Source: Myxococcales bacterium
Lineage (GTDB): Bacteria; Myxococcota_A; Polyangia; Polyangiales; Ga0077539
NCBI GenBank assembly: GCA_016793325.1
Contig: JAEUKI010000094.1
Location: 62,001 to 126,000 of the forward strand
Reading direction: 5' to 3'
DNA length: 64,000 nt
The notes beneath the pieces were generated by a model, which saw only the letters and a program-made list of their open reading frames with translations, made no database searches and was not told where the DNA came from. Made by a program: the position numbers and the translations under genes. Shown here in pieces: positions 8,552 to 43,201 of the stretch (the first letter of the stretch is position 1; each line of letters starts with the position of its first letter).

Positions 8552-8666
8552 TCCTCACATTTGCAATCCACCGCACCCCCACTGCAGGATTCACATATTG
8601 GACTCACAGGGCGTCTGTCACAAGTCCCCCTCTCCTGTGGCCGATCGCCCCATATCCCCCTCCTCG

Positions 8667-10442: not shown

Positions 10443-10556
10443 CAATCTCTCCCCAGAAAGTTGTCGGCGCACCCTACGTCACACGTCACGCGTGCGCAAC
10501 GCACCCCACGTCGTCCGCTCGAAGCGATCGCTTGGTAGAGCTACCCGTCGCCGTGC

Positions 10557-11150
10557 TCAGTCGCTGCGCCCTGTGATCGCGCCGCTCGCGCTGCCGGCGA
10601 GCAACGACGCGAGGTCCGCGCCGAGCTCGCCGCGAGGGCTCTCGATCACGCGCCCCACTTCGCGTCCCTCTCGCATCACGATGAACGTCGGAACGTACCG
10701 AATGTCCCGCCCCTCGGTGAGCCCTTCGGCCTGCTTCGCGCGATCGACCGCGATCAACCGATACGAAAACGGAAGCGCCCCGCGCTCGGCGTACCGCAGG
10801 AACTTCGTCACTTCGCGCACGCTGTCGCCGCACCACATTCCAAAGAACACGTCGATGTGCCCGCCGACCGGCGCCGCGGCCAACGCCCTGGCTCCCTCTG
10901 CGTCCGTCGTCGCGCTCGCGTACGCGCCGCGCCAACGAGCGTCCGCCTCGAGCACCTGCGCGCCGTTTACCTCGCCGACCAACATCGAACTCTCTCCTCG
11001 CGTCGCGCGCGTCGATTCTGCGCCCGACGCACTCGCGTTGGCGCTCGCCCCGCCGGCTCCGTTCGCCCCGTCGCTCGATCGCCCCCCGCACCCGCCGAGC
11101 GTCGCCAACGCGACGCACACCACAAACGTCCTCGCTCGAACTGCGCTCAC
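10557..11150 (-). CDS. Thioredoxin-fold lipoprotein
   Basis: A 197-residue protein with a basic signal peptide and lipobox LGGC, an Ala/Ser/Gly linker, then a thioredoxin fold. The active-site segment reads FFGMWCGDS, with a single cysteine in a WCxD(S) context like the thioredoxin_9-type family, so it may be a peroxidase-like or binding domain, not a dithiol oxidoreductase. The cis-proline is in 'RYVPTFIVMREG'. GTG 11150 gives the best signal peptide (MSAVRARTFVVCVALATLGG); an in-frame start at 11189 would leave only 17 bp to the divergent gpmI start. Substrate unknown. Confidence 0.75.
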   Translation of the reverse strand: MSAVRARTFVVCVALATLGGCGGRSSDGANGAGGASANASASGAESTRATRGESSMLVGEVNGAQVLEADARWRGAYASATTDAEGARALAAAPVGGHIDVFFGMWCGDSVREVTKFLRYAERGALPFSYRLIAVDRAKQAEGLTEGRDIRYVPTFIVMREGREVGRVIESPRGELGADLASLLAGSASGAITGRSD

Positions 11151-11206
11151 GACGACGGACTGTACCGCGCTCGCAAACGCGAGCACCATCTACGATCAAT
11201 CAACGG

Positions 11207-12883
11207 ATGGCAGCCACGTCGACGTCTTCATCGCTCGAGCTCGTCGAGCGCTCATCGTTCGCCCGGATCGAAGGCCCCGTCGTCGTCGTCGTGATGGACG
11301 GCGTCGGCGTCGCGCCCGCTGGCGAGGGAAACGCCTGCACGCTCGCGCGCACCCCGACGCTCGCGCACCTCCGCGAGCACACGCCCAACACCCTCCTCCG
11401 CGCGCACGGAACGGCCGTCGGCCTCCCGAGCGACGACGACATGGGCAACAGCGAGGTCGGGCACAACGCGCTTGGCGCCGGGCGCGTCTTCGATCAAGGC
11501 GCCAAGCTCGTCAATCAAGCGATCGCGTCGGGAGCGCTCTTTCGCGACGCGGCGTGGCGCTCGCTCGTCGGTCGCGTGCGAGAGCGCAACAGCACGCTCC
11601 ATTTCATCGGGCTCTTGTCCGATGGAAACGTTCACTCGCACGAGCAGCATTTGTTCGCGCTGCTCGAGGCGGCCGCGCGCGAAGGCGTCGAGCGAGCCCG
11701 CGTTCACGCGCTGCTCGACGGCCGTGATGTGCCCGAGACGAGCGCGCTCGTGTACGTCGATCGACTCGAAGAGAAGCTCGCGTCGCTGCGATCGACGGGA
11801 TCGAGCAAACGGGACTATCGCGTCGCGTCCGGCGGCGGTCGCATGAAGATCACCATGGACCGCTACGAAGCGGACTGGCCCATGGTCGAGCGCGGGTGGA
11901 AGCTCCACGTGCGCGGCGAAGGACAGGGCTTTCCGTCGCTTCGCGCGGCGGTCGAAGCGCTCCGCGAACGCGAGCCCGGCGTGAGCGACCAGAACCTCCC
12001 TGGCTTCGTGATCGTCGAGCGCGACGGGAGCCCCGTCGGTCCCATTCGCGACGGCGACGCGGTGGTGCTCTTCAATTTTCGCGGCGATCGCGCGATCGAG
12101 CTCACGCGCGCGTTCGAGGACGAGCGCTTCACGGCGTTCGATCGAGGCCCGCGCCCGGACGTGCTCTTCGCGGGGATGATGCAGTACGACGGCGATCTGC
12201 GATTGCCCTCGCGCTTCCTCGTGAGCCCGCCCGAGATCGACCGCACGTTGAGCGAGCACCTCGCGAGCAACGGGATCACGCAGTTCGCCTGCAGCGAGAC
12301 CCAGAAGTTCGGCCACGTCACGTATTTCTGGAACGGCAACCGCTCCTCTCCCCTCACCGGCGAAGAGTGGTTCGAGATCCCCAGCGACACGCGGCCGTTT
12401 CAAGAGCGGCCCTGGATGAAGGCCGCCGAGATCACCGATCGCGTGATCGACGCGCTCCGCACGGGCACCTTTCGTCACGGCCGAATCAACTACGCCAACG
12501 GCGACATGGTCGGACACACGGGCGTCCGCGACGCGGCCGTGCTCGCCGTCGAAGCCGTCGACCTCCAGCTCGCGCGGCTGTTGCCCGTGATCGCGTCGAT
12601 GAAGGGCGCGCTCGTCGTCACGGCGGACCACGGAAACGCCGACGAGATGTTCGAGCTCGACAAGAAGAGCAAGCAGCCCTTGCTCGACCGCGACGGACGG
12701 CCGCGCCCCAAGACGAGCCACACGCTCAACCCCGTCCCGTTCTTCGTGTACGCGCCGAGCGCATCGCTCTCGATCGACCGCGCGATCACCGCCCCCGGCC
12801 TCGCCAACGTCGCCGCGACGGTGCTGCACTTGCTCGGCTACGACGCCCCCGAGGGCTACCTGCCCTCGCTGCTAGCGCGGTAG
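11207..12883 (+). CDS. gpmI: 2,3-bisphosphoglycerate-independent phosphoglycerate mutase
   Basis: Glycolytic enzyme interconverting 3- and 2-phosphoglycerate with two Mn ions and a phosphoserine intermediate. The 558-residue sequence has the metal-binding MDGVG start of the alkaline-phosphatase-like fold (Asp31), the catalytic serine 82 in MGNSEVGH, and the second metal site 'VVTADHGNADEM'. It is longer than the usual ~510 residues because of about 25 extra N-terminal residues and a small insert around 460-480 (KKSKQPLLDRDGRPRPK). It diverges from the thioredoxin-like lipoprotein and is followed after 18 bp by the next gene on the same strand. Confidence 0.95.
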   Translation: MAATSTSSSLELVERSSFARIEGPVVVVVMDGVGVAPAGEGNACTLARTPTLAHLREHTPNTLLRAHGTAVGLPSDDDMGNSEVGHNALGAGRVFDQGAKLVNQAIASGALFRDAAWRSLVGRVRERNSTLHFIGLLSDGNVHSHEQHLFALLEAAAREGVERARVHALLDGRDVPETSALVYVDRLEEKLASLRSTGSSKRDYRVASGGGRMKITMDRYEADWPMVERGWKLHVRGEGQGFPSLRAAVEALREREPGVSDQNLPGFVIVERDGSPVGPIRDGDAVVLFNFRGDRAIELTRAFEDERFTAFDRGPRPDVLFAGMMQYDGDLRLPSRFLVSPPEIDRTLSEHLASNGITQFACSETQKFGHVTYFWNGNRSSPLTGEEWFEIPSDTRPFQERPWMKAAEITDRVIDALRTGTFRHGRINYANGDMVGHTGVRDAAVLAVEAVDLQLARLLPVIASMKGALVVTADHGNADEMFELDKKSKQPLLDRDGRPRPKTSHTLNPVPFFVYAPSASLSIDRAITAPGLANVAATVLHLLGYDAPEGYLPSLLAR

Positions 12884-13573: not shown

Positions 13574-13720
13574 GCGGACGCGCGCGTCTGAGTAATGTCG
13601 GGTTACTCACTCGACGCCCCGATGTGACCACGAGCACCACGAAGTAGTGAGACGCTCCGATCGCGGCGCGCGTTGGCGTGGGCCAGCGACCGTGCGCGGA
13701 AGGGGCATCGTTCGAGTCAC

Positions 13721-15241
13721 ATGAACAAGAGCGCAACGAAGAGCAACCAGACCTCGCTTCGAGTGGCCATCGTCGGCGGAGGGGCCGCCGGGGTCTTCAC
13801 CGCGTGGGCGCTGCAGCAAGTGCAGGGAGCCACCATCACCGTAGACCTGTGGGAGGCCAACAATCGCATCGGCGGCAACACCTGGTCGTGGCCGTACCCG
13901 TACAACGGAACGACCTACAACCTCGACGCCGGCGCGCAGTTCTTCTTCGCCAACCCGCAGCCCGCGTACGTGGGACTGCTGAAATCCCTCGGGCTCTTCG
14001 ACCAAGACGTCAGCTCGTATCCCGCAGGTATCTGCCTGTGGGACACAGACCAAAACGCGCGGACGCTCTTCGTCCCATCGAAGATCGAGAACTTCTTCGA
14101 CGGCACGCTCAAGCTCTCGGATATCCCGTCGCTGCTGCAGTTCTTCGCGTTTCTCTTGCAGGCCGAGACGCTGGACAAGAGCGGCAACTGGTCGCTGCCC
14201 ATGTCTCAGTGGCTGCAGAACGTCCAGTGGGTGACACAAGATTTCAAGGACAAGGTCCTCACGCCGTTCCTCTACCAGTTCGTGTCGCTGCCGCTGTCTC
14301 GCATCGGCGAGTCCTCGGCGCTCTACGCGCTCACGTATTTCGTTCGCAACGTGACGGGCTGGCCTGGGCAAGGCGTGGTCCCGCCAGACGCGGGCGACGT
14401 GTTCACGCTGTACCAGAGCGCCTCCATCGGACTCGATGGGATCCTCGGACAAGTGCTCGTCGGAACGCCGAACACCACCGTCCGCCTGAGCTCGCCCGTC
14501 GCCGCCGTCAGCTACGATCCGAACACGCAGCAGCCCGGACTCACGGTCAACGGGGGGTATCTCCCCTACGACGTCGTGATCCTCACGTGCGATCCGCAGA
14601 CAGCCTCGAAGCTCATCACCGCCGGAGGGAGCACCGCGCAGCCGAGCGCTCCCGCGTATCTGCAAAACATCGAGTACGCGCCGCTGCCGATCGTGCTCCA
14701 AGCGCCGCAATCGAACTACATGCCCACAGACCCCGGCTCGTGGCAGGCCGCGAACACGGTCGTGTCCAACAACGCGGGGAGCGTCGCGTTCAGCGGATAT
14801 TTCGGCGTCCTTCGTCCGCCCGCAGGGTCGAGCCTCGTGCCCGCGTTCAAGAGCTGGTCGAACCCTCCGATCTCGAGCCCGCCTCCCGACACGCTGCTCT
14901 TTCATTCGCACAACGTGCTCTACCCGACGACCACTTCGATCGCCGCGAGAGACGCGCTGCAGTCCCTTCAAGGCGCCACCAACGTCTACTTCGCCGGCGG
15001 GTGGAACACCTGGTTCGACAGCCAAGAGGCCGCCCTCCGCTCGGCCATCAACGTCGTCGGCGCGATGATCAACCCGTTCAACCTCGAGCCCGGTCCCTAC
15101 ATCGCCCCGTGGCTCGAAGAGTCCGGTGGAAAGCGCGGCACCACCGTGAGTCGCTTCATCGAGCGGCTCGTCTCGCGCATGCCCGACAAGCTCGCCCAGC
15201 CCGTGCGCGACGGGCTGCGCCCCGCGCTCGCCAAGCTGTAG
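13721..15241 (+). CDS. FAD-dependent flavin amine oxidase-like protein
   Basis: A 506-residue flavoprotein. Residues 13-45 form the dinucleotide-binding Rossmann motif (VAIVGGGAAG ... VDLWEA) followed by the amine-oxidase/phytoene-desaturase signature 'NRIGGNTWSW' at about 48. The C-terminal FAD-contact region reads 'NVYFAGGWNTW'. No signal peptide, although the region before the Rossmann motif (MNKSATKSNQ) is Ser/Asn/Lys-rich. Related proteins oxidise amines, protoporphyrinogen or polyenes; which one applies cannot be said. It ends exactly against the next gene's stop codon on the opposite strand. Confidence 0.85.
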   Translation: MNKSATKSNQTSLRVAIVGGGAAGVFTAWALQQVQGATITVDLWEANNRIGGNTWSWPYPYNGTTYNLDAGAQFFFANPQPAYVGLLKSLGLFDQDVSSYPAGICLWDTDQNARTLFVPSKIENFFDGTLKLSDIPSLLQFFAFLLQAETLDKSGNWSLPMSQWLQNVQWVTQDFKDKVLTPFLYQFVSLPLSRIGESSALYALTYFVRNVTGWPGQGVVPPDAGDVFTLYQSASIGLDGILGQVLVGTPNTTVRLSSPVAAVSYDPNTQQPGLTVNGGYLPYDVVILTCDPQTASKLITAGGSTAQPSAPAYLQNIEYAPLPIVLQAPQSNYMPTDPGSWQAANTVVSNNAGSVAFSGYFGVLRPPAGSSLVPAFKSWSNPPISSPPPDTLLFHSHNVLYPTTTSIAARDALQSLQGATNVYFAGGWNTWFDSQEAALRSAINVVGAMINPFNLEPGPYIAPWLEESGGKRGTTVSRFIERLVSRMPDKLAQPVRDGLRPALAKL

Positions 15242-29900: not shown

Positions 29901-30542
29901 TCAGTTCACCGCAGGAAACGCGCCGAGCTGCTCGCATCGCTCGACGAAGAACACGCTGCGCTGCCCGTCGTTGTCCACGTACACCTGCCGCGTCGCCGAC
30001 GCGGGCAAAACGCTCTGATCGCGGCACCGAACGCTCTGTCCCGTGCCGATCACGAAGCGCGCCCCCGCGCGCAGCTCGCAGCGAGAGAGCACGTCGAGCG
30101 CGCTCCACTCGGGGCAGATCGCGTTGTCCCTCTGGTACTGCTCTCTTGAAATCATGGGCCGCTCGAGCGACCACCACCGCCCGCGCTCTGTGTACGCGCG
30201 ATCGCGCTGCCACACGCGATAGAGCGCGATCGGGCGCGTGGCTTCGTAGACGACGCCCGCGCAGAGCTTTCCCGCTTCGGGGGCGCCGATGGCGCGCGCG
30301 AGGAGCTCGGGGTCCTCGACCGCGCGGGCCCCTTCGGGCGCCGGTCCGACGGACCCCACGCACGCGACCGCGCCAGCCTCGACGCTCGCGTCTTCGGGCG
30401 CGATCGACACTCCCGCGTCCGTCGCGTTGCCGCCCGACGAGCCGCCCTGCCCGCCCTGCGTCGATCCGTCGCTGCTCGGCGTACAGCCTGCGAATACCCA
30501 CAGAGACACGACGAGGCCCATCGAAACCCGAAGCGCGGTCAC
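29901..30542 (-). CDS. Small hypothetical lipoprotein
   Basis: A 213-residue protein. GTG 30542 gives VTALRVSMGLVVSLWVFAGC, a signal peptide ending in lipobox FAGC; ATG 30521 is an alternative. The mature part begins with a Gly/Ser/Asp-rich linker and has at least six cysteines (CVG, KLCAGV, ICPEW, SRCELR, VRCRDQ, ERCEQ), consistent with disulfides. No family recognised. It converges on the PI-PLC-like gene with a 3-bp gap. Confidence 0.65.
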   Translation of the reverse strand: MTALRVSMGLVVSLWVFAGCTPSSDGSTQGGQGGSSGGNATDAGVSIAPEDASVEAGAVACVGSVGPAPEGARAVEDPELLARAIGAPEAGKLCAGVVYEATRPIALYRVWQRDRAYTERGRWWSLERPMISREQYQRDNAICPEWSALDVLSRCELRAGARFVIGTGQSVRCRDQSVLPASATRQVYVDNDGQRSVFFVERCEQLGAFPAVN

Positions 30543-30579
30543 GGGCCGAGAGCATACGCGGATTTGTTGGCGTCGCGCG

Positions 30580-32409
30580 CTACGTCGCCGCGCGCCACGA
30601 CGCGAGCGCCCACAGCGGGTAGTACGTCCCCGCTGCCGCGTGCCGATAGAACGTCTCGGGGGGATAGATCGCGCACAGGTGCTGCGAGCCGTCCCAATCA
30701 CCTCCCTCTCGCTGCGCGTCGACGAGCCACCGAACCGCGCGCGACGCCGCGCTCGACTTCGCCCGCCCACCGTCGATCAGCGCCGTGAGCACTCGGCCCG
30801 TCACCGCCGCACACGCAGGCCCTTTGCCCTTGGTCTCGGGCCGCTCGTAGCTCTCGACGCTCTCGCCGAAGGCGCCGTCGTCGAGCTGACATCGGCCCAA
30901 GAAATCAAGTCCCCGCTCGATCCACAGGTCCTTTGCGCCGACCGCCAGCGCGCCTCGCACCGCGTAGCTCGTGCCTGCGGTGTAGTTGGTCAGCCATCGA
31001 CCGAAGAACGAGCCGTCGTCGAGCTGCTGCGCCCGCAAGAACGCGAGCCCGCGATCGACCGAAGGATCCCCCACCCGAAAGCCCCTCGCGCCGAGGCCCG
31101 AGAGAACGCGACCCGTGACGTCTTCGGCCGACGGGTCGCCGAGCTCGAGCGGCGGGCGCGCCGCGAGCGCGAGCAGCGTCCGGGGGTCGCTCGGATCGAT
31201 GACGACCGGGCTCGTGAACAACGGCCCGCGGGGCTTCGTTGGGTGCCCGCACACGTATGAAGCCCAGCCTCCGTCGGGGTTTTGCATTCCACGAAGCCAG
31301 GCGACGAGCGCGTCGATCGAGGCGTGATCTTCGTCTCGCGCGAGCTCCGAGAGCGCGCCGAGCGCGGCGCCCGCGTCGTCGCAGTCGGGCAGCACCGTGT
31401 TGTCCGCGCGAAACGCGTAGCCGCCCACCAGCGGGCCGTCTCCGTGCTGGTGATTCTCGCGCGCTTGCGGCGAGCGACACTGCGCCGCGACGAGGTACTC
31501 CCGCGCGCGCACGAGCGCCGGATCGCGCGCGTCCGAGCCCGACGCCACGAGCGCGTGAACGGTGAAGATCGTCGCCCACAAAGGGACCTCGAACGCGTCC
31601 CAGAAGAGCCCCGCATCGTCCTCGCGACGCTCGCGCGAGAGCCACCCGAGCGCCCGTTGAATTCGTGGGTCACCGTGGTCCACCCCCGCGGCGTGCAGCG
31701 CGGCGAGGTGCAGGGCCGTGACGGGGGCCCACGCGTTCCAGCTGCCCGTGGGGTTTTGAAATGTGGTGAGCCAGTGAACCCCGCGCTCGGTCTCGCGCCG
31801 AGAGAGCCACGAAGGCCCCGTCGAGAGCCCCGCGCTCGCGCGGAGGCGCTTGGTGACGAGCCGCTGGGCGAACGCCGTCATCAGCACGCCGCCGTGAAAG
31901 CGCCGCAGAAACCAGCGCTCCCCCGCGCCCGTGGCCAGCGCGTAGAGCGGCATGTCGGGCAGCGCGCTCGGCGCGAGCTCGCCCAGCATCGCGAGGTACA
32001 AGAGCGAGAGATCTCCCCGCGTCGCGTCGCGGGTGATGCGCTCGACGCCGCCTCGCGCGCGCACGAAGCGCTCGGCGCGGTCGATCACCGAGGCGCTTCC
32101 CCCGTAGCGACGCAGGTACGCCGCGACCACCGCCGTCGCGCCGACGTGCCCCTCGCTCTTGCGCGGAAAGAGAACGAACCCGCCGCTCGCGCTCGCCTGC
32201 CCCTCGAGCCACGACGCGATCCGTCGACCGTCCTCCGGTGAGAGCTCGTCGCAAAACGCGAGGCACGCCGCGGTCTGCGCGGTCGCCGCGGGCCCCACTT
32301 CGCCGGGCGCCGGCCACGAGCCGTCCGCGCGCTGAACGCCCTGCAAATACGCTCGCGATCGCACGATCGCGTCGTCGACCGCAGCGCGCGACGGAGCCGA
32401 TCGGGTCAT
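30580..32409 (-). CDS. Squalene-hopene cyclase family terpene cyclase
   Basis: A 609-residue protein of the class II triterpene cyclase family, which cyclises squalene or other polyprenyl substrates by protonation. The catalytic acid motif DXDD is present as D342-C-D344-D345 in 'TVLPDCDDAGAAL'. QW-type repeats are seen ('QNPTGSWNAW' about 218, 'QNPDGGWASY', 'QLDDGSFFGRWL', 'QREGGDWDGS'), and the C-terminus (AAGTYYPLWALASW) matches the family's ending. No signal peptide. The window has no squalene synthase or hopanoid-tailoring gene, so the substrate is open (hopene, diterpene or tetraterpene product). An anchored protein is encoded 8 bp upstream. Confidence 0.88.
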   Translation of the reverse strand: MTRSAPSRAAVDDAIVRSRAYLQGVQRADGSWPAPGEVGPAATAQTAACLAFCDELSPEDGRRIASWLEGQASASGGFVLFPRKSEGHVGATAVVAAYLRRYGGSASVIDRAERFVRARGGVERITRDATRGDLSLLYLAMLGELAPSALPDMPLYALATGAGERWFLRRFHGGVLMTAFAQRLVTKRLRASAGLSTGPSWLSRRETERGVHWLTTFQNPTGSWNAWAPVTALHLAALHAAGVDHGDPRIQRALGWLSRERREDDAGLFWDAFEVPLWATIFTVHALVASGSDARDPALVRAREYLVAAQCRSPQARENHQHGDGPLVGGYAFRADNTVLPDCDDAGAALGALSELARDEDHASIDALVAWLRGMQNPDGGWASYVCGHPTKPRGPLFTSPVVIDPSDPRTLLALAARPPLELGDPSAEDVTGRVLSGLGARGFRVGDPSVDRGLAFLRAQQLDDGSFFGRWLTNYTAGTSYAVRGALAVGAKDLWIERGLDFLGRCQLDDGAFGESVESYERPETKGKGPACAAVTGRVLTALIDGGRAKSSAASRAVRWLVDAQREGGDWDGSQHLCAIYPPETFYRHAAAGTYYPLWALASWRAAT

Positions 32410-32417
32410 CGAAGGTT

Positions 32418-33296
32418 CTACCTCCAGGGCTCCGCAGGGAGCTGCCCGTCGAACTCCGCGGGCAGCGTCTGCCCGATCCGCGACGGATCCCGCATGCCCG
32501 AGAGCGTCCCGATCACGCGGTCTTGCTCGTCGACGAAGTAGCTCTCTTCATCGAGGGCATACACGCGAACGCGGCCGAGACCTTCGACGTTCATGTCGGG
32601 CTCGCGGCGCAGCGTCGAACGCCACGCGCGCTCGAGCGGGTCGCGCAGATCGAGCACCCACGCCTCGACGCGTCCGCCCTCGCTCAACCGCGCGCTCTGG
32701 ATCCACGTGATCACCCCGGCGTTGGAGGGCGCGAGCACGATCGTCGGCTTCGCTTTGGGCCGAAGCTCTTCGTAGCTGCGTCGGCCGTTCGGCTCGACGC
32801 GCGTGACGGTCACGAACGGCGTTCGAAACTCGTACGTCCTCGTGTCGTACTGAATGCCTCGGGGGCTCGGCTTTCCGATGCGACGCCACGCGCGAATGGG
32901 GCGCATGGACTCGTCGTACACGACCTCGCCGTCGACGACTTCGCGGGGAGATTCTCGGTGCACCGTCACGACGCGGTGACAGCCTCGGGCGCGCAGATCG
33001 AAGCGCTCCCACGCGCCGCGATCGACGGCCATCGGCAGCGCGACGAGCGAGCTCGACAAGAGCGACTCGCCTTGGCTGGGCGCTCCCGCGTCGTCGCCTG
33101 CGCATCGCGGGTAGGCGAGCTGCGGGACACTCGCGACGGCAAAATGCGTTCGCTTGCGAAATCGCCGGGAGATTCCATCGACGTTGATCGCGAGAAAGAC
33201 CACGGCGAGCGCGGCGAGGCCGAGCTTCTTGTTGCGGGTCATCGGCCGCTCGGGCTCGACCGCGCGCGTGGCTCGCTCAGGCTTGTCGCTGGACAC
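32418..33296 (-). CDS. Membrane-anchored hypothetical protein upstream of terpene cyclase
   Basis: A 292-residue protein with one membrane helix near the N-terminus (about 25-38, LGLAALAVVFLAINV), then a periplasmic domain of about 250 residues rich in beta structure. Start 33296 is assumed; ATG 33242 (MTRNKKLG) would also leave the anchor intact. It ends 8 bp before the cyclase, so the two are co-transcribed. It may also be co-transcribed with the respiratory cluster, whose last gene is 101 bp upstream. Family unknown. Confidence 0.6.
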   Translation of the reverse strand: MSSDKPERATRAVEPERPMTRNKKLGLAALAVVFLAINVDGISRRFRKRTHFAVASVPQLAYPRCAGDDAGAPSQGESLLSSSLVALPMAVDRGAWERFDLRARGCHRVVTVHRESPREVVDGEVVYDESMRPIRAWRRIGKPSPRGIQYDTRTYEFRTPFVTVTRVEPNGRRSYEELRPKAKPTIVLAPSNAGVITWIQSARLSEGGRVEAWVLDLRDPLERAWRSTLRREPDMNVEGLGRVRVYALDEESYFVDEQDRVIGTLSGMRDPSRIGQTLPAEFDGQLPAEPWR

Positions 33297-33397: not shown

Positions 33398-33841
33398 TCA
33401 GTGGTGCGCGCCGCCGCCTGCGGGCTGACGCTCGCGCGCTTGAACGCCGCGCGGATCGAGGTTGAACCCGCCGGGCGCTTGTTCACCGCGGCGCTCGAGG
33501 ATGCGCACGGTGCTCGCGTCGTCGACGCGACCGCGCGTGTCGAGGTCCTCGAGCGTGATGAACAAGAACACGCCCAAGAACACGAAGGACATCACGAACA
33601 CGAGCGCGTGAAAGCCCTTGTCGTACTTGAGGTGCATGAAGAACGTCGCGACGAGCGTCGCCTTCGCCGTGGCGATCAACACCGCGATGATGGTGTTGGC
33701 CGAGCCGAAGTCGAAGCGCGACGCGGCGACCGTGACCACCGTGAGGAAGATCAGCGCGCCGAAGATCGCGCAGAGAAAGAAGAACGACGAGACGTGCGCG
33801 TGAACCTTGCCGTCGTCGTGCGAGTGAGAGTGGTCGCTCAT
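33398..33841 (-). CDS. Cytochrome c oxidase subunit IV
   Basis: A 147-residue small subunit with three membrane helices (about 20-40, 50-70 and 80-98: FFFLCAIFGALIFL, TIIAVLIATAKATLVATFFM, ALVFVMSFVFLGVFL), as in subunit IV of caa3/bo-type oxidases. His-rich start (SDHSHSHDDGKVHAH). The C-terminal 50 residues are hydrophilic, ending in GGGAHH. ATG 33841 is preferred over the TTG at 33850. It overlaps the subunit III stop region, so it belongs to the cox operon. Confidence 0.85.
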   Translation of the reverse strand: MSDHSHSHDDGKVHAHVSSFFFLCAIFGALIFLTVVTVAASRFDFGSANTIIAVLIATAKATLVATFFMHLKYDKGFHALVFVMSFVFLGVFLFITLEDLDTRGRVDDASTVRILERRGEQAPGGFNLDPRGVQARERQPAGGGAHH

Positions 33842-33846
33842 GTTCT

Positions 33847-34554
33847 TCAACCCACCAGGTAGACCAACGGGAAGAGGTAGATCCAGACGAGGTCGACGAG
33901 GTGCCAGTACAGCGCGCCGATCTCGACTGGGGTGAAGTACTCGGGTGAGAAGTCACCGCGGTGATTGCGCGCGAGGACCCAGCCGAGGACCGACATTCCG
34001 ATGATGACGTGCAAGCCGTGGAGGCCCGTCATCATGAAGTAGAGCGCGAAGTACATGTTCGCGCGCTGCGGGAGCACGTGACCGTTGTGCGCGTGCTCGG
34101 GCAAGTGCGCGGTGAAGTACCGGCCCGGGAGCAGTCCGTCGTGAAACTTGTGCGAGTACTCGACGTACTTGATCCCGAGAAAGCCGAGGGCGCACAGGAT
34201 CGTGATCACGAGCCAGAAGGTGGTCTCGTTCTTCTTTCCGAGCTGGCTCGAGCGCACGGCGAGCGCCGCGGTGAGCGAGCTGAAGAGCAGCACGATCGTG
34301 TTGACGCTGCCGAGCTTCCAGTCGAGGCGCTGGTGGGCCTCGATGAAGACCGACGGCTCCTGACCCTTGTAGATGAGGTAGGCCACGAAGAGCCCGCCGA
34401 ACATCAAGATCTCGGTGACGATGAACACCCACATGCCGAACTTCGCAGCGTCGAACTGCTGTTCGGGGGTGTCGAAGTGGTGCGCGAGGAACTTCGGATG
34501 ATCGGCGTGTTCGCCGTGCTCTCCGTGTCCGTGGTCGCTGTGCGCGCTGGCCAT
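33847..34554 (-). CDS. coxC: Cytochrome c oxidase subunit III
   Basis: A 235-residue subunit III of a heme-copper oxidase. Five membrane helices are seen, with conserved 'KFGMWVFIVTEILMFGGLFVAY' at about 38, and the family's 'LHGLHVIIGM' and 'YWHLVDLVWIYLFPLVYL' at the C-terminus. This short, five-helix form is typical of subunit III in caa3 oxidases, where the first two helices are lost. The N-terminus is His-rich. Confidence 0.93.
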   Translation of the reverse strand: MASAHSDHGHGEHGEHADHPKFLAHHFDTPEQQFDAAKFGMWVFIVTEILMFGGLFVAYLIYKGQEPSVFIEAHQRLDWKLGSVNTIVLLFSSLTAALAVRSSQLGKKNETTFWLVITILCALGFLGIKYVEYSHKFHDGLLPGRYFTAHLPEHAHNGHVLPQRANMYFALYFMMTGLHGLHVIIGMSVLGWVLARNHRGDFSPEYFTPVEIGALYWHLVDLVWIYLFPLVYLVG

Positions 34555-34640
34555 TGGCTCTTCGTCCTGTCGCGGTGTTGAGTGCTGAGTGCTGGGTGGG
34601 TGCTCTCTTCGCGGCGGCGATCAACCGCAGCGAAGATCGC

Positions 34641-36317
<1,677 letters not shown>

Positions 36318-36374
36318 CGCTAAAGGTCCCTTTCTCTCAGAAAGTCAAAACAGCTCGAATGAGTGAATCGCCGC

Positions 36375-37388
36375 TCAGCGCAGCGTGCGGATGTACGCGA
36401 TCAGCGCGTCGATCTGGTTGTCGCGGAGCGTCCCCGCGAACGAAGGCATCACGCCGTTGAAGCCCTGAACCACCTTGGAGTTCGGCTGCAGGATCGACTG
36501 GCGGATGTAGTTCGCGTCCGCGGTCCCGCTCGTCCCGTCGGCGAACTGACGCTGACGACCGAAGAGCCCGCGCCACGTCGGTCCCGTCATCGCCGAGCCG
36601 TCCGTCGAGTGGCACGTGTTGCACTGCTGCGAGCGATAGAGGATCTCGCCCCACTTCTCGGGCGTCGCTTCGCGGCCCGTCGCCGGGTCCGTCGGAGGAC
36701 GAAGGATCGACTCGAGGAAGGTGTTGTACTCGGCCGCTGTTTGAATGCGGACCTTCGTGATCATGCTGAAGTGCCCGACGTGGCGGCGGTTGCCCTCGCG
36801 GCCGACGTTGGGATCGCCCTCGGCGACCTCGGTCGTCCCCACGGCGGCGCCGCAGTACTCGGTGCAGAACAGGTCGGTCTCGCCCGTCTGCGTCGCCTCG
36901 AACCACATCGTGCTGTAGAAGCCCGGAACCGCGTCGCGCTTCACGCGAAACGCCGGGATGTACAGAGAGTGGATCACGTCCTCGGACGAGAGCACCAAGC
37001 GCACAGGGCGGTGCACTGGGATGTGCAAGATGTTCGAGTGACCGCCGTTCGGGTACTCGAAGTCCCACGACCACTTCTTCGCGCGCACGCGGATCTCCAT
37101 CGCGTCCGCGGGCGCGACGGTCATGTCGATGTACCCGCGAAACCCGATGTGAAAGAGAAACGCGAGGATCGCCAGCGGCGACACCGTCCACGTGATCTCG
37201 AGCACCGTCGCGTGGCCCGTCGGCTCAGCCTTGACCCCCGGCTTTCGGCGGTACTTGTACACGAAGTACATCGCCGCGCCGATGATCGCGACGAAGAGAA
37301 CCACGCTGAGATAGTAGATGAAGTAGAAAGCCCAATCGACGTGACCTGCGAAGGTCGACCATTGGGGGGGCAGCTGCATCGTCTCCAT
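36375..37388 (-). CDS. coxB: Cytochrome c oxidase subunit II with fused cytochrome c (caa3-type)
   Basis: A 337-residue subunit II. Two membrane helices (about 22-42 and 66-84), then the cupredoxin CuA domain and a C-terminal cytochrome c (CNTCH at 256-260, Met314 as likely axial ligand). CuA ligands: His140 (VIHSLY), Cys175 and Cys179 with Glu177 (FCTEYC), His206 and Met209 (GHFSM). Between Cys179 and His206 there are 27 residues, against about 4 in typical enzymes, an insertion of 23 (GTTEVAEGDPNVGREG...). It likely forms a loop near CuA. Confidence 0.94.
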   Translation of the reverse strand: METMQLPPQWSTFAGHVDWAFYFIYYLSVVLFVAIIGAAMYFVYKYRRKPGVKAEPTGHATVLEITWTVSPLAILAFLFHIGFRGYIDMTVAPADAMEIRVRAKKWSWDFEYPNGGHSNILHIPVHRPVRLVLSSEDVIHSLYIPAFRVKRDAVPGFYSTMWFEATQTGETDLFCTEYCGAAVGTTEVAEGDPNVGREGNRRHVGHFSMITKVRIQTAAEYNTFLESILRPPTDPATGREATPEKWGEILYRSQQCNTCHSTDGSAMTGPTWRGLFGRQRQFADGTSGTADANYIRQSILQPNSKVVQGFNGVMPSFAGTLRDNQIDALIAYIRTLR

Positions 37389-37463
37389 CGTCTTGTCGCC
37401 GTTCGTGCGAGGCTCGCTCAGAGCCTCTTTGAAGAATCCGTTATCCGATGCGATGCGCGGGCG

Positions 37464-38411
37464 TTACCCGCGACGCTCCTGCTCGTGTGTGTCGAGACCG
37501 TCACGACCATCGCGGCGATAGATCGCGCCAGCCGAGCCCGCGCGATCGCGGTCCCTGCGCAACTCTCGAAGCCAGAGCGCCAGCAGTCCGCCGCCGAGCA
37601 GCGCCGCTGTGACTCCGCCTCCGAGCTTCATCACCTGTCGCGCTACGAGCACGTAGCGCCGATCCTGCGGATCGAAGTGAAAGCAAAACATCAGCACGCG
37701 ATCGACCGTGCTGATCGAGCGCCCTTCGGACGCCTCGATGAGCCCCAGCCGAAGATCGTTTGCCGGAAACGAGATCCCGTACAGGTACCGCGCGACCTTG
37801 CCCGAGGGCGTCGCCACGAAGATCACCGCGGGGTGCGAGTACTGGTTCTGCCTCGGCTCGAACCGATAGCCGAACCCCAAGGCCGTCGCGAGCCGACGCA
37901 CTTGCGCCTCGTCTCCCACGGTGAAGTGCCAGCCGTTCGCGCCGGTCGCGCGGCCGAACTGATCGGCGATGCGCGCGCGACGATTGGCCGCGTCCTGCGA
38001 GGTCTCTCGCGGGTCGATGCTCACCGTGAGCACTTCGTACTGATCGCCCGGGTTCCACGCGACCTGCCGAAGCCCGTTGACCATCGCGTTGGACACGAGG
38101 TTGCAGAGCATCGGACAGCGGTAGTACGCGAGGTTGATGATCACGGGCTTGCCCGTGGTGAAGTAGTCGCGGAGGCGCACGAGGCGCCCGCGCTCGTCGC
38201 GAAGCTCCACGTCCATCGGGAGCTGCGCGTTCAAGTGCTCGGTCACCGTGATCTCTTCGACCCGCGGCGGCGTCACGTTGCGCGCCGCGTTCGAAGCTCC
38301 GTCGTCCTCGCGCACGCCCAAGCCGTACTGAGCGAACGCCAGGGATTCTCCCAGCGTCGCGGACGCCGCGATCGCGAGCGTCGTCATCAGTCGGCAGTTC
38401 GAGCGGGTCAC
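37464..38411 (-). CDS. SCO1/SenC-type copper chaperone
   Basis: A 315-residue protein with an N-terminal signal peptide (MTTLAIAASATLGESLAFA), a thioredoxin-like SCO domain with copper-binding 'YRCPMLC' (Cys99, Cys103) and His193 in 'YSHPAVIF', and a C-terminal membrane helix (about 272-290, GGGVTAALLGGGLLALWL) that standard SCO proteins do not have. The family delivers copper to CuA of subunit II, which follows 75 bp downstream on the same strand. The last 25 residues are highly charged. Confidence 0.92.
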   Translation of the reverse strand: MTRSNCRLMTTLAIAASATLGESLAFAQYGLGVREDDGASNAARNVTPPRVEEITVTEHLNAQLPMDVELRDERGRLVRLRDYFTTGKPVIINLAYYRCPMLCNLVSNAMVNGLRQVAWNPGDQYEVLTVSIDPRETSQDAANRRARIADQFGRATGANGWHFTVGDEAQVRRLATALGFGYRFEPRQNQYSHPAVIFVATPSGKVARYLYGISFPANDLRLGLIEASEGRSISTVDRVLMFCFHFDPQDRRYVLVARQVMKLGGGVTAALLGGGLLALWLRELRRDRDRAGSAGAIYRRDGRDGLDTHEQERRG

Positions 38412-39066: not shown

Positions 39067-40470
39067 TCAGTTCGAGTGGTGCTTCGAGCGCTCGAGGCGC
39101 GGGTCGGACACCGGGATGAGCTTGTGCTGCGTCATGAGCTTGAACACCATCGCGAGGTACACGCCGCCGACGGCGAGCAAGCTCACGAGGTCCATCCAGC
39201 TCACGGGCAACGAGTGATGCGCCTCGGCGCCGTGCGACGCCGCGGCTTGTGCGCCGTGCGCGCCCGCCTTGAACATCGGGAGAACGAGCCAGTAGTACTC
39301 GACCACGTGCATCACGAGCAGCGTGATGGCGCCGAGCGCGAGGAGGTTCATCCGTCGCTTGACGTTGCGAGACATCAAGAAGACGAACGGGATCGCGAAG
39401 TGCAGCACGGCGAGCGACATCGTCACGGGCTGCCACGCGGGGTTCTCGTTCCAACGCGCGTGGTAGAAGACCGTCTCTTCGGGGATGCTCGCGTACCAGA
39501 TCAAGAAGAACTGGCTGAAGCACACGTACGCCCAGAAGCAGTTGAACCCGAACATGAGCTTGCCCATGTCGTGGAAGTGCTCGATGTTGACCGCATCGCC
39601 GATGTAGCCGGCCTTCTTCAAGCCGAGCCCCGTCAGGATCAACGCGGCCATCGCCGCGACGAGGCCGCCCGCGAAGATCGTCACGCCGAAGATCGTCGAG
39701 TACCAAGCGGGCTCGAGCGCCATCAGCCAGTCGAACGACGCGAACGTCAGCGTCAGCGCGAGAAGCGCGATCGACCACGGCGCCGAGCGCGCCATCGCCA
39801 CGGTGACCTTCTTGTCCTTGCTCTTGTCCTGACCGGTCGAGAGCTTGAAGAAGCGCCACGACAGCCAACCCCAAACGAACAGGTAGATCGCCTGACGAAT
39901 GAAGAAGAACGTCTTGTCGAACCAGAGCTTCTTCTTCTCGAGGGTCTGGTGGTGGACGTTGTGGAGGCCGCGCGTCTCGAGCTCGTGCAGGCTCGGTCGC
40001 TCGCCGTGGCCCGCTTGCTCGCCATGACCGGCTTGTTGACCGTGCTCACCGTGGCCCGCTTGCTGCGCGCCGTGGCCCGCCTGCGCGGTCGCGCCGTGCG
40101 ACGAAGCGTGCCCGTAGTGCTCCCACTGCGGAAAGTGCTGCATCAGCGCGAACAGCGGCAGAAACAGCACGATGAGCGCGGGGATGCCGCCCATGAAGAA
40201 CTCCGCCGTGCGCCGGATGCCAACGCTCCAGTGCGCCGCGGAGATGTGCTGAATCACCACGAAGAAGAGCGTCCCGATCCCGAGGGTCAGAAACGCCATG
40301 AACGCGAAGAGGTACGAGAACGCGAGCCGCTTCGGGTCCGACGCGAATCCCGCGCCGACGCCCGCGAGGCCAAGAGCACCCACGGCCGCGGCGATCTTCC
40401 ACGCCGAGGACCAGGGGCCGTTGCTGTCGATCTCGAGCTTGCCTTCGCTCTTGTGCGATGTGGCGCTCAC
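39067..40470 (-). CDS. actF: Alternative complex III, membrane subunit ActF
   Basis: A 467-residue integral membrane protein (about ten helices) of the ActF/NrfD-related family. A His/Gly/Gln-rich insert of about 55 residues (about 115-170, repeated GHGEQAGHG-type units) lies between helices 3 and 4. It starts at GTG 40470, overlapping the actE stop by GTGA. In characterised ACIII, ActC and ActF flank the quinol site and form candidate proton paths. Confidence 0.9.
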   Translation of the reverse strand: MSATSHKSEGKLEIDSNGPWSSAWKIAAAVGALGLAGVGAGFASDPKRLAFSYLFAFMAFLTLGIGTLFFVVIQHISAAHWSVGIRRTAEFFMGGIPALIVLFLPLFALMQHFPQWEHYGHASSHGATAQAGHGAQQAGHGEHGQQAGHGEQAGHGERPSLHELETRGLHNVHHQTLEKKKLWFDKTFFFIRQAIYLFVWGWLSWRFFKLSTGQDKSKDKKVTVAMARSAPWSIALLALTLTFASFDWLMALEPAWYSTIFGVTIFAGGLVAAMAALILTGLGLKKAGYIGDAVNIEHFHDMGKLMFGFNCFWAYVCFSQFFLIWYASIPEETVFYHARWNENPAWQPVTMSLAVLHFAIPFVFLMSRNVKRRMNLLALGAITLLVMHVVEYYWLVLPMFKAGAHGAQAAASHGAEAHHSLPVSWMDLVSLLAVGGVYLAMVFKLMTQHKLIPVSDPRLERSKHHSN

Positions 40471-41117
40471 GGGTTCGCTCCTGCGTTGGCCTGGCTGAGC
40501 TGCAGCGCGCGAACGTACGCGACGATGGCCCAGCGATCATAAGTGGGGATCTGCGCGGCGTATCCGGGCATGTTTCGGATGCCGTTGCGAATGGTGGCGT
40601 ACAGCTGCCCGTCCGGCGTGTGGCGGATGCGGTCATCGTGCAGCGACGAGGGCTGCGGGTACTGGTAGCCCGAGATCCTCGAGCGCAAGTACACGATGCC
40701 CTGGCCGTCGCCGACGGTCCCGTGGCAGGGCGTGCAGTAGATGTTGAAGCGCTCGCGGCCCCGAGCCACCGCGCCCTCCATGCCCTCGACCCAACGTCCG
40801 TCGTTGGTGCGGTGGCGGAGGTTCGCGATCGCCGCTTGGGGGATGCGCTCGACGTAGTTGCGCGTCCCGGGCTGCAGGCCGCTCTCGACCTCGGGGTCGA
40901 CGCCGCCTTGCTCCCTTGAAATCGTGTGCGCAGGGATCGGGCGCATGCTGCGTCCGTCCTGGAAGTACTGGCTCGAGTCCTGGGGCCGGTACTTCTCTTG
41001 ACGGTGCATGTTGCGGATCGGAACGATCGGCGGCAGCTCGCTCGGCCCGCCTCGGCACGCCGAGATCGGCATCGAGAGGAGCCCCGCGGCGATCAACTTG
41101 GAGATCGTCGGACGCAT
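40467..41117 (-). CDS. actE: Alternative complex III, monoheme cytochrome c subunit ActE
   Basis: A 216-residue lipoprotein cytochrome: signal peptide 'LIAAGLLSMPISAC', then a class I cytochrome c with one CTPCH heme site and a probable axial Met in 'IRNMPGYAAQIP'. In ACIII it hands electrons to the oxidase. Start ATG 41117 shares a base with actD's stop (TGATG) and has a strong GGAGGAGG upstream. The stop overlaps actF (GTGA). Confidence 0.9.
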   Translation of the reverse strand: MRPTISKLIAAGLLSMPISACRGGPSELPPIVPIRNMHRQEKYRPQDSSQYFQDGRSMRPIPAHTISREQGGVDPEVESGLQPGTRNYVERIPQAAIANLRHRTNDGRWVEGMEGAVARGRERFNIYCTPCHGTVGDGQGIVYLRSRISGYQYPQPSSLHDDRIRHTPDGQLYATIRNGIRNMPGYAAQIPTYDRWAIVAYVRALQLSQANAGANP

Positions 41118-41704
41118 CAGACCACCTCCTCCTCGATCACTTCGATGTGCGTCGCGTGCGCGTCCTCGAGGAGCTTGCGCGTCTTCTTCTCGTCGTACTT
41201 GGGGTCGTCCACTTCGATGCTCACGAAGAACCGATCGTCCGTCGCGCGCTCGAAGCGCTGCGAGAAGAAGATCGGGTGGTGGTGCCGAGGGAGCCGGTTG
41301 ATCCCGAACATCCCGAACACCGCGCCGAACGCGCTGAACAGAATGGTCAACTCGAACGCCACCGGCGCGACCGACGGGATCGACCACGGCGGCTTTCCAC
41401 CGATGATCAACGGGTAGTCGACGACGTTCATGTAGTAGATCATGCCGAGCGCGCTGCAGAAGCCCGTGAGGGCCATCGCAGCGACGATCCAGCCGAGCCG
41501 CGAGTCGGGCAGTCCCATCGCGCCGTCCATCCCGTGGATGGGAAAGGGCGTGTGGACGTCCCAACGCGTGAAGCCCGCGTCGCGGACCTTCTCGGCCGCG
41601 TGGAAGATCTTCGCCGTGGAGTCGAACTCCGCCAGCAGAAGGACGGGCTTCTTCTCGCCCGCGCTCTTCTTCTCGTTGTCGTGATCGTGATCGTGGCTGG
41701 CCAT
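41117..41704 (-). CDS. actD: Alternative complex III subunit ActD (DUF3341)
   Basis: A 195-residue membrane protein with two helices (about 70-90 and 110-130). N-terminus His/Asp-rich (ASHDHDHDNEKKSA) and a cytoplasmic 'LLAEFDSTAKIFHAAEKVRDAGF' segment, both typical of the DUF3341 family. It anchors beside ActC and ActF. It lies 9 bp after actC and overlaps actE. Confidence 0.9.
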   Translation of the reverse strand: MASHDHDHDNEKKSAGEKKPVLLLAEFDSTAKIFHAAEKVRDAGFTRWDVHTPFPIHGMDGAMGLPDSRLGWIVAAMALTGFCSALGMIYYMNVVDYPLIIGGKPPWSIPSVAPVAFELTILFSAFGAVFGMFGINRLPRHHHPIFFSQRFERATDDRFFVSIEVDDPKYDEKKTRKLLEDAHATHIEVIEEEVV

Positions 41705-41713
41705 GGTGCTCTC

Positions 41714-43201
41714 TCAGGCCTCCGCGCTCGACGCCTTGGACTCGCCGTCCTCAGCGTGGTCGTCGGACTTGTGGTCGTCGTCGTGGTGCTCGTCACCGTG
41801 CGAGCCGTGGTCACCGTGCGCCTCGAAGTGCGGGTCGGACTCGGGCAAAACGCCCTTGACCTCAGCGATCGCGATCGCGGGCAGCCATCGGATGAAGAGC
41901 AAGAAGAACGTGAAGAACAACCCGAACGAGCCGAGGTAGGTCATCACGTCGATCGGCGTGGGGTGGAAGTAACCCCACGACGAGGGGAGGAAGTCCCTGT
42001 GGAGCGAGGTCGCGATGATCACGAAGCGCTCGAACCACATGCCGATGTTCACGAAGATCGAGACCGCGTAGGACACCGGCACGTTGGTCCGCATGGACTT
42101 CACCCAGAAGATCTGCGGCGAAATCACGTTGCAGATGATCATCGACCAGTAGGCCCACGCGTAGGGGCCCTTCATGCGGCTGACGAAGAAGACGTAGCGC
42201 TCGTAGTCGTTGCCCGAGTACCACGCGATGAAGAACTCCATCGCGTACGCGTAGCCAACGATGCTCCCGGTCGCGAGGATGATCTTGTTCATGAACTCGA
42301 TGTGCTTGAGCGTGATCAAGCCGTGCAGCTTGAACACCGAGCGCACGACGAGCATGAGCGTCAGCACCATCGCGAACCCCGAGAAGATCGCGCCCGCGAC
42401 GAAGTACGGCGGGAAGATCGTCGTGTGCCACCCGGGGATGACCGACGTCGCGAAGTCGAACGAAACGACCGAGTGCACAGAGAGCACGAGCGGCGTCGAG
42501 ATCGCCGCGAGGATCATGTACGCACGCTCGTAGTTCTGCCAGTGACGGTTCGAGCCGCGCCACCCGAGGGCAAACGCGCCGTACGCCATGCGGCGGATCT
42601 TGTTCTTCGAGCGATCCCTGAGCGTCGCGAGGTCGGGGACGAGGCCCACGTACCAGAACAACAGCGAGACCGTGAAGTACGTGCTGACCGCGAACACGTC
42701 CCACAAGAGCGGGCTCTTGAAGTTCGGCCAGATCCCCATCGAGTTGGGGATCGGGAAGGGGTAGTACATCAGCCACACGCGGCCGACGTGGATGCCGGGG
42801 AACATCAACGCGCAGATGACGGCGAAGATGGTCATGGCCTCCGCCGCGCGGTTGATGCTCGTTCGCCACTTCTGGCGGAAGAGAAAGAGCACCGCGGAGA
42901 TGAGCGTCCCTGCGTGACCGATACCGACCCACCACACGAAGTTGGTGATGTCCCACGCCCACGAGATGGGCTGGTTGTTGCCCCAGGCGCCGATGCCCTT
43001 CCAGAACAGGTAGGCGAGCGTCAGGCCGAGGGCCCCGAGCAAGCTGACGGCGATGAGAAACATCACCCACCAGCCGCGCGGAGCGGGGTTTTCAGTCACC
43101 TTCGCGACATCATCGGTGATCCGATGAAAGTCGTACTCGGGGGCCGCGAGCGCGACCTCGTTGATCTCCTTGATCGGAGCGTTCGGGTTGGCGGAGCTCA
43201 T
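41714..43201 (-). CDS. actC: Alternative complex III, NrfD-like quinol-binding subunit ActC
   Basis: A 495-residue integral membrane protein of the NrfD/PsrC family with about ten helices. '[23 protein letters not shown]' and '[18 protein letters not shown]' are the conserved loops near the quinol site in ActC. The C-terminus is a His/Asp-rich tail ([20 protein letters not shown]). ATG 43201 overlaps the actB stop (ATGA). Confidence 0.93.

Follow-up and report, generated by a model that had tools for sequence, protein, structure and literature searches.

The cyclase gene and its neighbourhood

The DNA analysed (the window) comprises 64,000 nucleotides of contig JAEUKI010000094.1 (positions 62,001 to 126,000 of the forward strand; assembly GCA_016793325.1) from a bacterium of the Myxococcales. 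The gene under study encodes a putative class II terpene cyclase, and the gene of an anchored protein ends 8 bp upstream of the cyclase start codon. The source genome (10.4 Mb, 95 contigs) is designated G000 and the contig carrying the window C77. An earlier reading made from the sequence alone had reported a DCDD motif and QW repeats in the cyclase and had placed the anchored-protein gene 8 bp upstream. The open reading frames (ORFs) and their spacing were reproduced, and both the DCDD motif (residues 342–345) and six QW-type motifs were found (Table 1). The Shine–Dalgarno-like sequence of the cyclase overlaps the last codons of the upstream gene, which suggests translational coupling of the two genes. 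Genes of a caa3-type oxidase and of an alternative complex III (ACIII) lie further upstream on the same strand.

Table 1. Features of the cyclase locus, in window coordinates (SHC, squalene–hopene cyclase; OSC, oxidosqualene cyclase).
Feature	Position	Strand	Basis
Predicted class II terpene (polyene) cyclase, 609 aa, ATG start, divergent from SHC/OSC	30580-32409	-	ORF, profiles, tree, model
DxDD general-acid motif, DCDD, residues 342–345	31375-31386	-	aligns with D374–D377 of AacSHC
QW-type motif QRADGSW, residue 26	32314-32334	-	motif scan
QW-type motif QNPTGSW, residue 218	31738-31758	-	motif scan
QW-type motif QNPDGGW, residue 376	31264-31284	-	motif scan
QW-type motif QLDDGSFF, residue 462	31003-31026	-	motif scan
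QW-type motif QLDDGAF, residue 508	30868-30888	-	motif scan
QW-type motif QREGGDW, residue 566	30694-30714	-	motif scan
Region of the upstream gene's last codons, TAG stop and 8-bp gap	32410-32425	-	sequence
GGAGG Shine–Dalgarno-like sequence, 11 bases before the cyclase ATG	32421-32425	-	overlaps the upstream gene's last codons
Anchored protein, 292 aa, GTG start, ACIII–caa3 operon tail gene	32418-33296	-	ORF, synteny, model
caa3 oxidase subunit IV	33398-33850	-	profile matches
caa3 oxidase subunit III	33847-34554	-	named by eye
caa3 oxidase subunit I	34641-36317	-	named by eye
caa3 oxidase subunit II with cytochrome c	36375-37388	-	caa3 gene block 33398-38411
SCO-like gene	37464-38411	-	named by eye
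ORF without Pfam match inside the ACIII block	39067-40470	-	Pfam scan
ActD, alternative complex III	41117-41704	-	profile match; ACIII block 39067-43201
NrfD-type subunit, alternative complex III	41714-43201	-	profile match

Family, phylogeny and residues of the cyclase

The cyclase frame holds 609 open codons with a coding-type GC content at third codon positions (GC3, 0.86), and its product is very likely a class II terpene cyclase. In a Pfam scan the protein matched PF13243 (SQHop_cyclase_C) with 215.5 bits and PF13249 (SQHop_cyclase_N) with 90.2 bits, the gathering scores being 26.1 and 26.2, respectively. The pattern Q-x(2,3)-G-x(1,2)-[WF] occurs six times; 2000 random reorderings of the protein's residues contained it 0.38 times on average and never more than 3 times. 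The score with the hopene cyclase model TIGR01507 (251.5 bits) lies below its cut-off of 431.1, and that with the oxidosqualene cyclase model TIGR03463 (112.8 bits) lies below a cut-off of 851 that is also missed by the genome's own OSC, encoded on contig C9 (725.4 bits). The predicted structure (pLDDT 93.3) shows the two-domain alpha/alpha barrel fold; among the matches listed, its best solved match is AacSHC (2sqc; Z 48.6, rmsd 2.5, 564 residues, 28% identity), followed by drimenyl diphosphate synthase (Z 36.5, 465 aligned residues).

A profile was built from 15 sequences of the clade described below and compared with families of solved structure. Scores of 385 bits against AacSHC and 163 bits against lanosterol synthase were obtained; drimenyl diphosphate synthase gave no more than 82 bits, bacterial diterpene cyclases gave 41–57 bits and prenyltransferase beta subunits (geranylgeranyl transferase) 27 bits. 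The sequence-only reading had considered that the protein might fall among non-catalytic prenyltransferase-repeat proteins; the DCDD motif and the scores of 385 bits for SHC versus 27 bits for prenyltransferase beta subunits speak against such a placement.

For the phylogeny, 80 of 87 confirmed cyclase loci were retained. The alignment comprised 96 rows plus AacSHC, duplicates and segments under 450 aa having been excluded; 61 of the 97 rows entered a quick tree, and 60 entered a maximum-likelihood tree from which locus L047 was excluded because of its long branch. A comparison with SHC and sporulenol-type cyclases had been proposed earlier, and it placed the window cyclase in a distinct clade of 33 rows (support 100/100 in the maximum-likelihood tree; 34 rows in the quick tree), to which neither AacSHC and the SHC-like rows nor the Bacilli rows nor the OSCs belong. 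The four Bacilli rows, which we take to be of sporulenol-type function, form a branch of their own outside this clade in both trees. Within the clade, the window cyclase belongs to a core of 25 rows (100/99) and there to a group of four (95/91), together with a paralogue on contig C49 and two proteins from another family of the order. Its best named relatives (L022–L045) stem mostly from myxobacterial metagenome-assembled genomes, three of them called Sandaracinaceae. Judged by its position in the trees, the cyclase is neither of the hopene, nor of the sterol, nor of the sporulenol type and belongs to a separate clade.

Diagnostic residues were counted in 96 of the 97 rows (groups of 25, 9, 4, 5 and 53; the duplicate window fragment was excluded) and are numbered according to AacSHC, itself one of the 53 SHC-like rows. 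In the core clade the acid motif is kept, with D374 and D376 in 25 of 25 rows and D377 in 24, and so are W312, F365, W489 and D442 (25 of 25 each) and D447 (22 of 25). D313, Y495, F601, F605 and Y612 are replaced in every core row; the SHC-like rows retain F605 in 51 of 53 cases and the other four in all 53. The window cyclase has A, A, Y, T and A at these five positions, which presumably lie near the later ring cations in SHC. Initiation and closure of the A and B rings would accordingly be kept and the late cascade not, and the sequence favours, to a fair degree, a product with one to three rings or a chain other than squalene as substrate, since the residues stabilising the later cations are gone. 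The exchange H451R was dropped as a sign of a new mechanism, because R stands there in 25 of 25 core rows and in 47 of the 53 SHC-like rows as well.

Oxygenase partners, genomic slot and substrate supply

Many relatives of the cyclase are encoded by ORFs of about 1000 codons, the C-terminal part of which corresponds to PF09995 (MPAB_Lcp_cat; 56.9–76.4 bits in three such proteins tested, 105.5 bits in L159). A profile of this oxygenase (A1) was prepared from seven domains, four of them fused to and two adjacent to a cyclase, the seventh being a protein on contig C58 of the window genome. It matched rubber oxygenase over 299 positions (5o1m, 7.8e-51; 5o1l, 8.6e-51) and keeps the R, the T-A and the H of the RIxxTA ... 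H region, this H being presumably the haem ligand of domains of the latex-clearing protein (LCP)/MpaB type. At 36 clade loci with flanks, the domain was fused to the cyclase in 15 cases and in 7 was encoded by a neighbouring gene on the same strand, within 849 bp; it was found at 0 of 55 loci outside the clade (L046, L048–L101). One of the 36, L160, apparently represents the same contig as L027, to judge by length and place. Several contigs stop near the cyclase, and absence of the oxygenase is not firm there (L027: 0.6 kb upstream); L161, a near relative, has no oxygenase within flanks of 1.7 and 11.5 kb.

Within the 25-row core, 14 cyclases are fused to the oxygenase, 6 are adjacent to it and 5 are without it, namely those of the window, of contig C49, of genomes G168 and G129 and of L027. 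The window enzyme stands in a four-member sub-branch without an oxygenase partner; no PF09995 match was found on contig C77 in the genome search, in the window itself or in the 20 kb that precede its first position. An oxygenase tree was sampled from 43 domains (22 cyclase-linked, the C58 domain and 20 distant PF09995 places from 41 listed), of which 39 entered; four distant ones (L167, L169, L170, L171) were not matched by the A1 profile. Two changes separate cyclase-linked from distant copies in this tree, as against 13.1 in shuffles, and a single clade of cyclase-linked domains is compatible with the data (p-AU 0.146) without being demonstrated. The C58 protein is the only strong PF09995 protein of the window genome (99.6 bits); it is probably not a lost partner of the window cyclase, because its sequence groups with distant copies common to genomes G004, G005 and G007. 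Genome G129 contains an oxygenase copy beside the cyclase-linked L047 in the tree (support 85; L047 has a long branch), about 147 kb from the G129 cyclase. A PF09995 match on contig C54 (23.7 bits, 77-aa frame) was unmatched by the A1 profile and was treated as chance.

Further genes were observed at the loci of related cyclases. L047 encodes a distant cyclase (7637-10594, plus strand) with DCDC for DxDD, fused to DUF2071, and a stand-alone LCP/MpaB-type gene lies just upstream. A protein of 183–215 aa adjoins the fused cyclase in L026, L029, L034, L035, L036, L039 and L044, and its copy in L035, the only one scanned, matched DUF2378. A histidine kinase is encoded just downstream of the cyclase in L025, and L031 and L035 have homologues of it downstream as well. 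L156 (8918-14645, plus strand) encodes a cyclase that carries DUF2515 at its N-terminus; the next gene encodes an HpnE-like flavin oxidoreductase, a region of which weakly resembles acetoacetate decarboxylase (25.1 bits, below cut-off). In L040 (4042-13011) and L041 (387-8741), the cyclases overlap a large Ser/Thr kinase–AAA protein and are followed on the opposite strand by HpnE-like and FMO-like flavin enzymes (domains scanned in L040).

The anchored protein had been described as belonging to no known family. It indeed has no match in Pfam, NCBIfam or PHROGs; it does belong to a conserved family: a protein search at E≤0.001 detected it in 48 of 183 genomes from the order, among them all 13 genomes of the taxonomic family. 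Its AlphaFold2 model (21 sequences, pLDDT 90.0) consists of one N-terminal helix and a beta domain. Among solved structures, PA1994 (2h1t), a DUF1089 protein, matched this model best, with a Foldseek E of 3.3e-6, a Z of 14.2 over 154 residues, 17% identity and no Pfam match. Of the 47 other genomes that encode the protein, 10 were examined for gene context (L145–L154). At all ten loci its gene follows those of caa3 subunits II, I, III and IV and an SCO-like gene, and an ActD homologue lies upstream at nine; the stretch of L153 ends before that place. No cyclase match was found at any of the ten, and the cyclase occurs in 19 of the 183 genomes (E≤1e-30). Several homologues appeared lipoprotein-like by eye, so that the family may be anchored by a transmembrane helix or by a lipid. 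The pairing of the two genes implied by the earlier reading is rejected, because the anchored protein is the tail gene of an ACIII–caa3 operon and is widespread in genomes without a cyclase match; it is no terpene gene and no partner of the cyclase, and is a candidate for an as yet unnamed accessory factor of the ACIII–caa3 system.

Genomes G004 and G005 belong to the same genus as the window genome. Both are drafts (91–92% completeness) in which the locus is present and contiguous, and neither shows a cyclase match at the corresponding position. In G005, the alignment with the following gene, a homologue of window positions 29901-30770, begins about 0.2 kb past the anchored-protein gene. G004 has a gap of 1.27 kb with an unrelated ORF of 318 aa on the opposite strand, acyltransferase-like by eye but without a Pfam match. 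A cyclase remnant in this gap was sought and rejected: the best tblastn value was only 0.015, on the opposite strand, and the only good blastn match (7.7e-10) was the shared end of the anchored-protein gene. Summed tblastx E-values went down to 5e-21 and were not counted as a remnant, as they were summed over numerous short segments that differed in frame and strand, with the filter off, in GC-rich DNA and with the shared gene end included. The window cyclase is an accessory gene, probably an insertion, behind the operon of the anchored protein, and the slot behind the ACIII–caa3 operon (window 30540-32418 compared with L145 and L146) seems to be variable in the genus, holding a cyclase, the 318-aa ORF or nothing.

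Three further genes of the window genome, an OSC-type gene, a cyclase gene on contig C85 and one for a shorter cyclase-like protein on contig C5, are shared by G000, G004 and G005; the window and C49 cyclases have no counterpart in G004 or G005. The C85 cyclase has DLDS or DMDS for DxDD, with counterparts in G004, G005 and G007. In L011, this cyclase (8209-10173, plus strand) is directly followed by an oxygenase of the Rieske ring-hydroxylating type (10193-11302, plus strand), homologues of which adjoin the cyclase in L042 and L045.

Substrate could be supplied from elsewhere in the genome. A sterol-type cluster on contig C9 encodes an OSC (TIGR03463, 725.4, cut-off of 851 not reached; TIGR01787, 598.8, cut-off of 322.7 exceeded), a squalene-synthase-type protein (PF00494, 130.3 bits; TIGR01559, 86.8 bits, below cut-off) and a squalene-epoxidase-type protein (PF08491, 140.4 bits). 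Production of sterols has been reported for Sandaracinus amylolyticus (PMC4919349), which fits the C9 cluster. On these gene assignments, squalene is probably available in the cell. The genome's two PF00494 proteins are encoded on C9 and on C40 (a second SQS/PSY), and none on C77. The earlier statement that the window holds no squalene synthase was therefore borne out, and the word orphan suits the cyclase within the window and not within the genome, in view of the squalene-synthase-type gene on C9. A search of the genome for hpn genes had also been suggested; HpnH was looked for and gave 15 weak matches, none over the cut-off and none on C77. The claim that radical-SAM and hopanoid genes are missing from the window holds for HpnH, radical-SAM genes in general not having been searched for. 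A flavin amine oxidoreductase is encoded at window positions 13673-15241 (plus strand; PF01593, 78.3 bits). It was rejected as a tailoring enzyme, as it is not close to the HpnE-like neighbour in L040 (29 bits) and has no NCBIfam match at 1e-10.

Interpretation and comparison with known systems

The findings are best explained, with a probability of about 0.6, by an active polyene cyclase of a non-hopene clade that forms an early-terminated product or acts on a non-squalene chain, and that is encoded by a partner-free accessory gene behind the ACIII–caa3 operon. Catalytic activity as such is probable. An aspartate of the DCDD motif would protonate the terminal double bond of a linear isoprenoid, residues of the W312/F365/W489 type would direct closure of the A and B rings, and the cascade would halt early (mono- to tricyclic), or the chain would be other than squalene. 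Because most relatives are fused to or lie beside an LCP/MpaB-type oxygenase, the ancestral system probably cyclised one part of a polyprenoid and oxygenated or cleaved another double bond by means of this haem enzyme. The line of the window cyclase would then be a sub-branch without the oxygenase that was inserted behind the ACIII–caa3 operon, the anchored-protein gene lying 8 bp upstream by chance. For the fused forms of the clade, true bifunctionality is given nearly even odds. With slightly less than even odds, the clade as a whole represents a new kind of bifunctional enzyme that combines a class II cyclase with an LCP-type haem oxygenase, closing rings at one end of a linear polyprenoid and oxygenating or oxidatively cleaving another of its double bonds, to give apo-terpenoids by an undescribed route, with the window enzyme as a partner-free offshoot that performs the cyclisation step only.

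Several observations weigh against this explanation. The window cyclase deviates at 5 of 53 positions on which all other full core rows agree (Q72A, Q334R, W469F, N509L and G513A), the highest number among the 24 full core rows (next 4, 4 and 3), and its end branch is the longest in the core clade (1.17, quick tree); a loss or change of function is therefore possible. The outer clade members L040, L041 and the C85 type have no oxygenase in flanks of 3.6–9.7 kb, so that the oxygenase was perhaps gained elsewhere and not lost on the line of the window enzyme. Lastly, no prenyl synthase was found beside the window cyclase.

Loss of the late-ring residues would also suit a short chain, and only SHC matches the predicted fold better than drimenyl diphosphate synthase among the structures listed. 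A diphosphate-keeping cyclase acting on farnesyl or geranylgeranyl diphosphate, like drimenyl or copalyl diphosphate synthase, is unlikely all the same: its families scored at most 82 and 41–57 bits with the clade profile, as against 385 bits for SHC, and a class I synthase or phosphatase was found in 0 of 15 window proteins scanned with Pfam (the genome was not searched for these). Slightly less probable again is a decaying or non-catalytic paralogue that was kept, or is drifting, after loss of its oxygenase partner. The open frame of 609 codons with coding-type GC3, the intact DCDD motif and core aromatic residues, and the confident predicted fold argue against decay, which would be consistent with the long branch, the departures from invariant positions and the presence of the cyclase in one of three congeneric genomes compared.

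An ordinary SHC that converts squalene made by the sterol cluster into hopene or diplopterol is improbable, even though SHC is the nearest solved and profiled family and the genome has a squalene-synthase-type gene. The score of 251.5 bits against a cut-off of 431.1, the position outside the SHC clade (100/100), the loss of five late-ring residues that SHC-like rows retain and the lack of an HpnH match over the cut-off all oppose it. Of the two products named in the sequence-only reading, hopene is not supported in view of the first three of these points, which favour an unusual terpene. A joint role of the cyclase and the anchored protein in respiration, for instance on a quinone side chain, is very improbable, for although the 8-bp gap and the overlapping Shine–Dalgarno-like sequence suggest co-expression with the ACIII–caa3 operon, the gene of the anchored protein closes the operon at each of the ten other loci examined, none with a cyclase match, and the protein occurs in 48 of 183 genomes as against 19 for the cyclase.

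For annotation, this means that the window protein, which is very probably not a hopene cyclase, should not be named as one, and that the anchored protein should not be listed as its partner. With AacSHC (1SQC/2SQC; TIGR01507) the window cyclase shares the full-length fold, DxDD, the QW motifs and W312, F365, W489, D442 and D447; it differs in its score below the family cut-off, its separate clade and the replacement of D313, Y495, F601, F605 and Y612, and, unlike in SHC systems, no hopanoid genes were found around it. The class II fold is also common to the drimenyl diphosphate synthase SsDMS and to other short-chain class II cyclases (Tpn2, CPS and Rv3377c), enzymes that use DxDD chemistry with little need for late-ring residues. 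Unlike SsDMS, whose PDB chains have 514–539 residues, the window cyclase has 609, and the clade profile reaches at most 82 bits against that family.

The C-terminal or adjacent domain of the relatives resembles LcpK30 (5O1L/5O1M; PF09995; E 7.8e-51); the window cyclase itself, unlike these relatives, has no LCP/MpaB domain. To our knowledge, latex-clearing protein and MpaB oxygenases are stand-alone enzymes, and the class II cyclase fusions known to us have a HAD-type domain or a class I synthase as partner. Searches of the open-licence PMC literature gave no report in which a class II cyclase is joined to an LCP/MpaB-type oxygenase, which is weak evidence of absence. If true, the fusion to a rubber-oxygenase-type domain would enable a single protein both to form rings and to cleave the chain oxidatively, and the clade offers fused, paired and partner-free forms as candidates for testing what may be a new two-step chemistry of terpenes. 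In architecture, the fused relatives resemble the HAD-fused drimenol synthases, which are reported to join a class II cyclase to a HAD-type domain (PMC9128629, PMC13244436), whereas the domain fused in the relatives of the window cyclase is an LCP/MpaB oxygenase.

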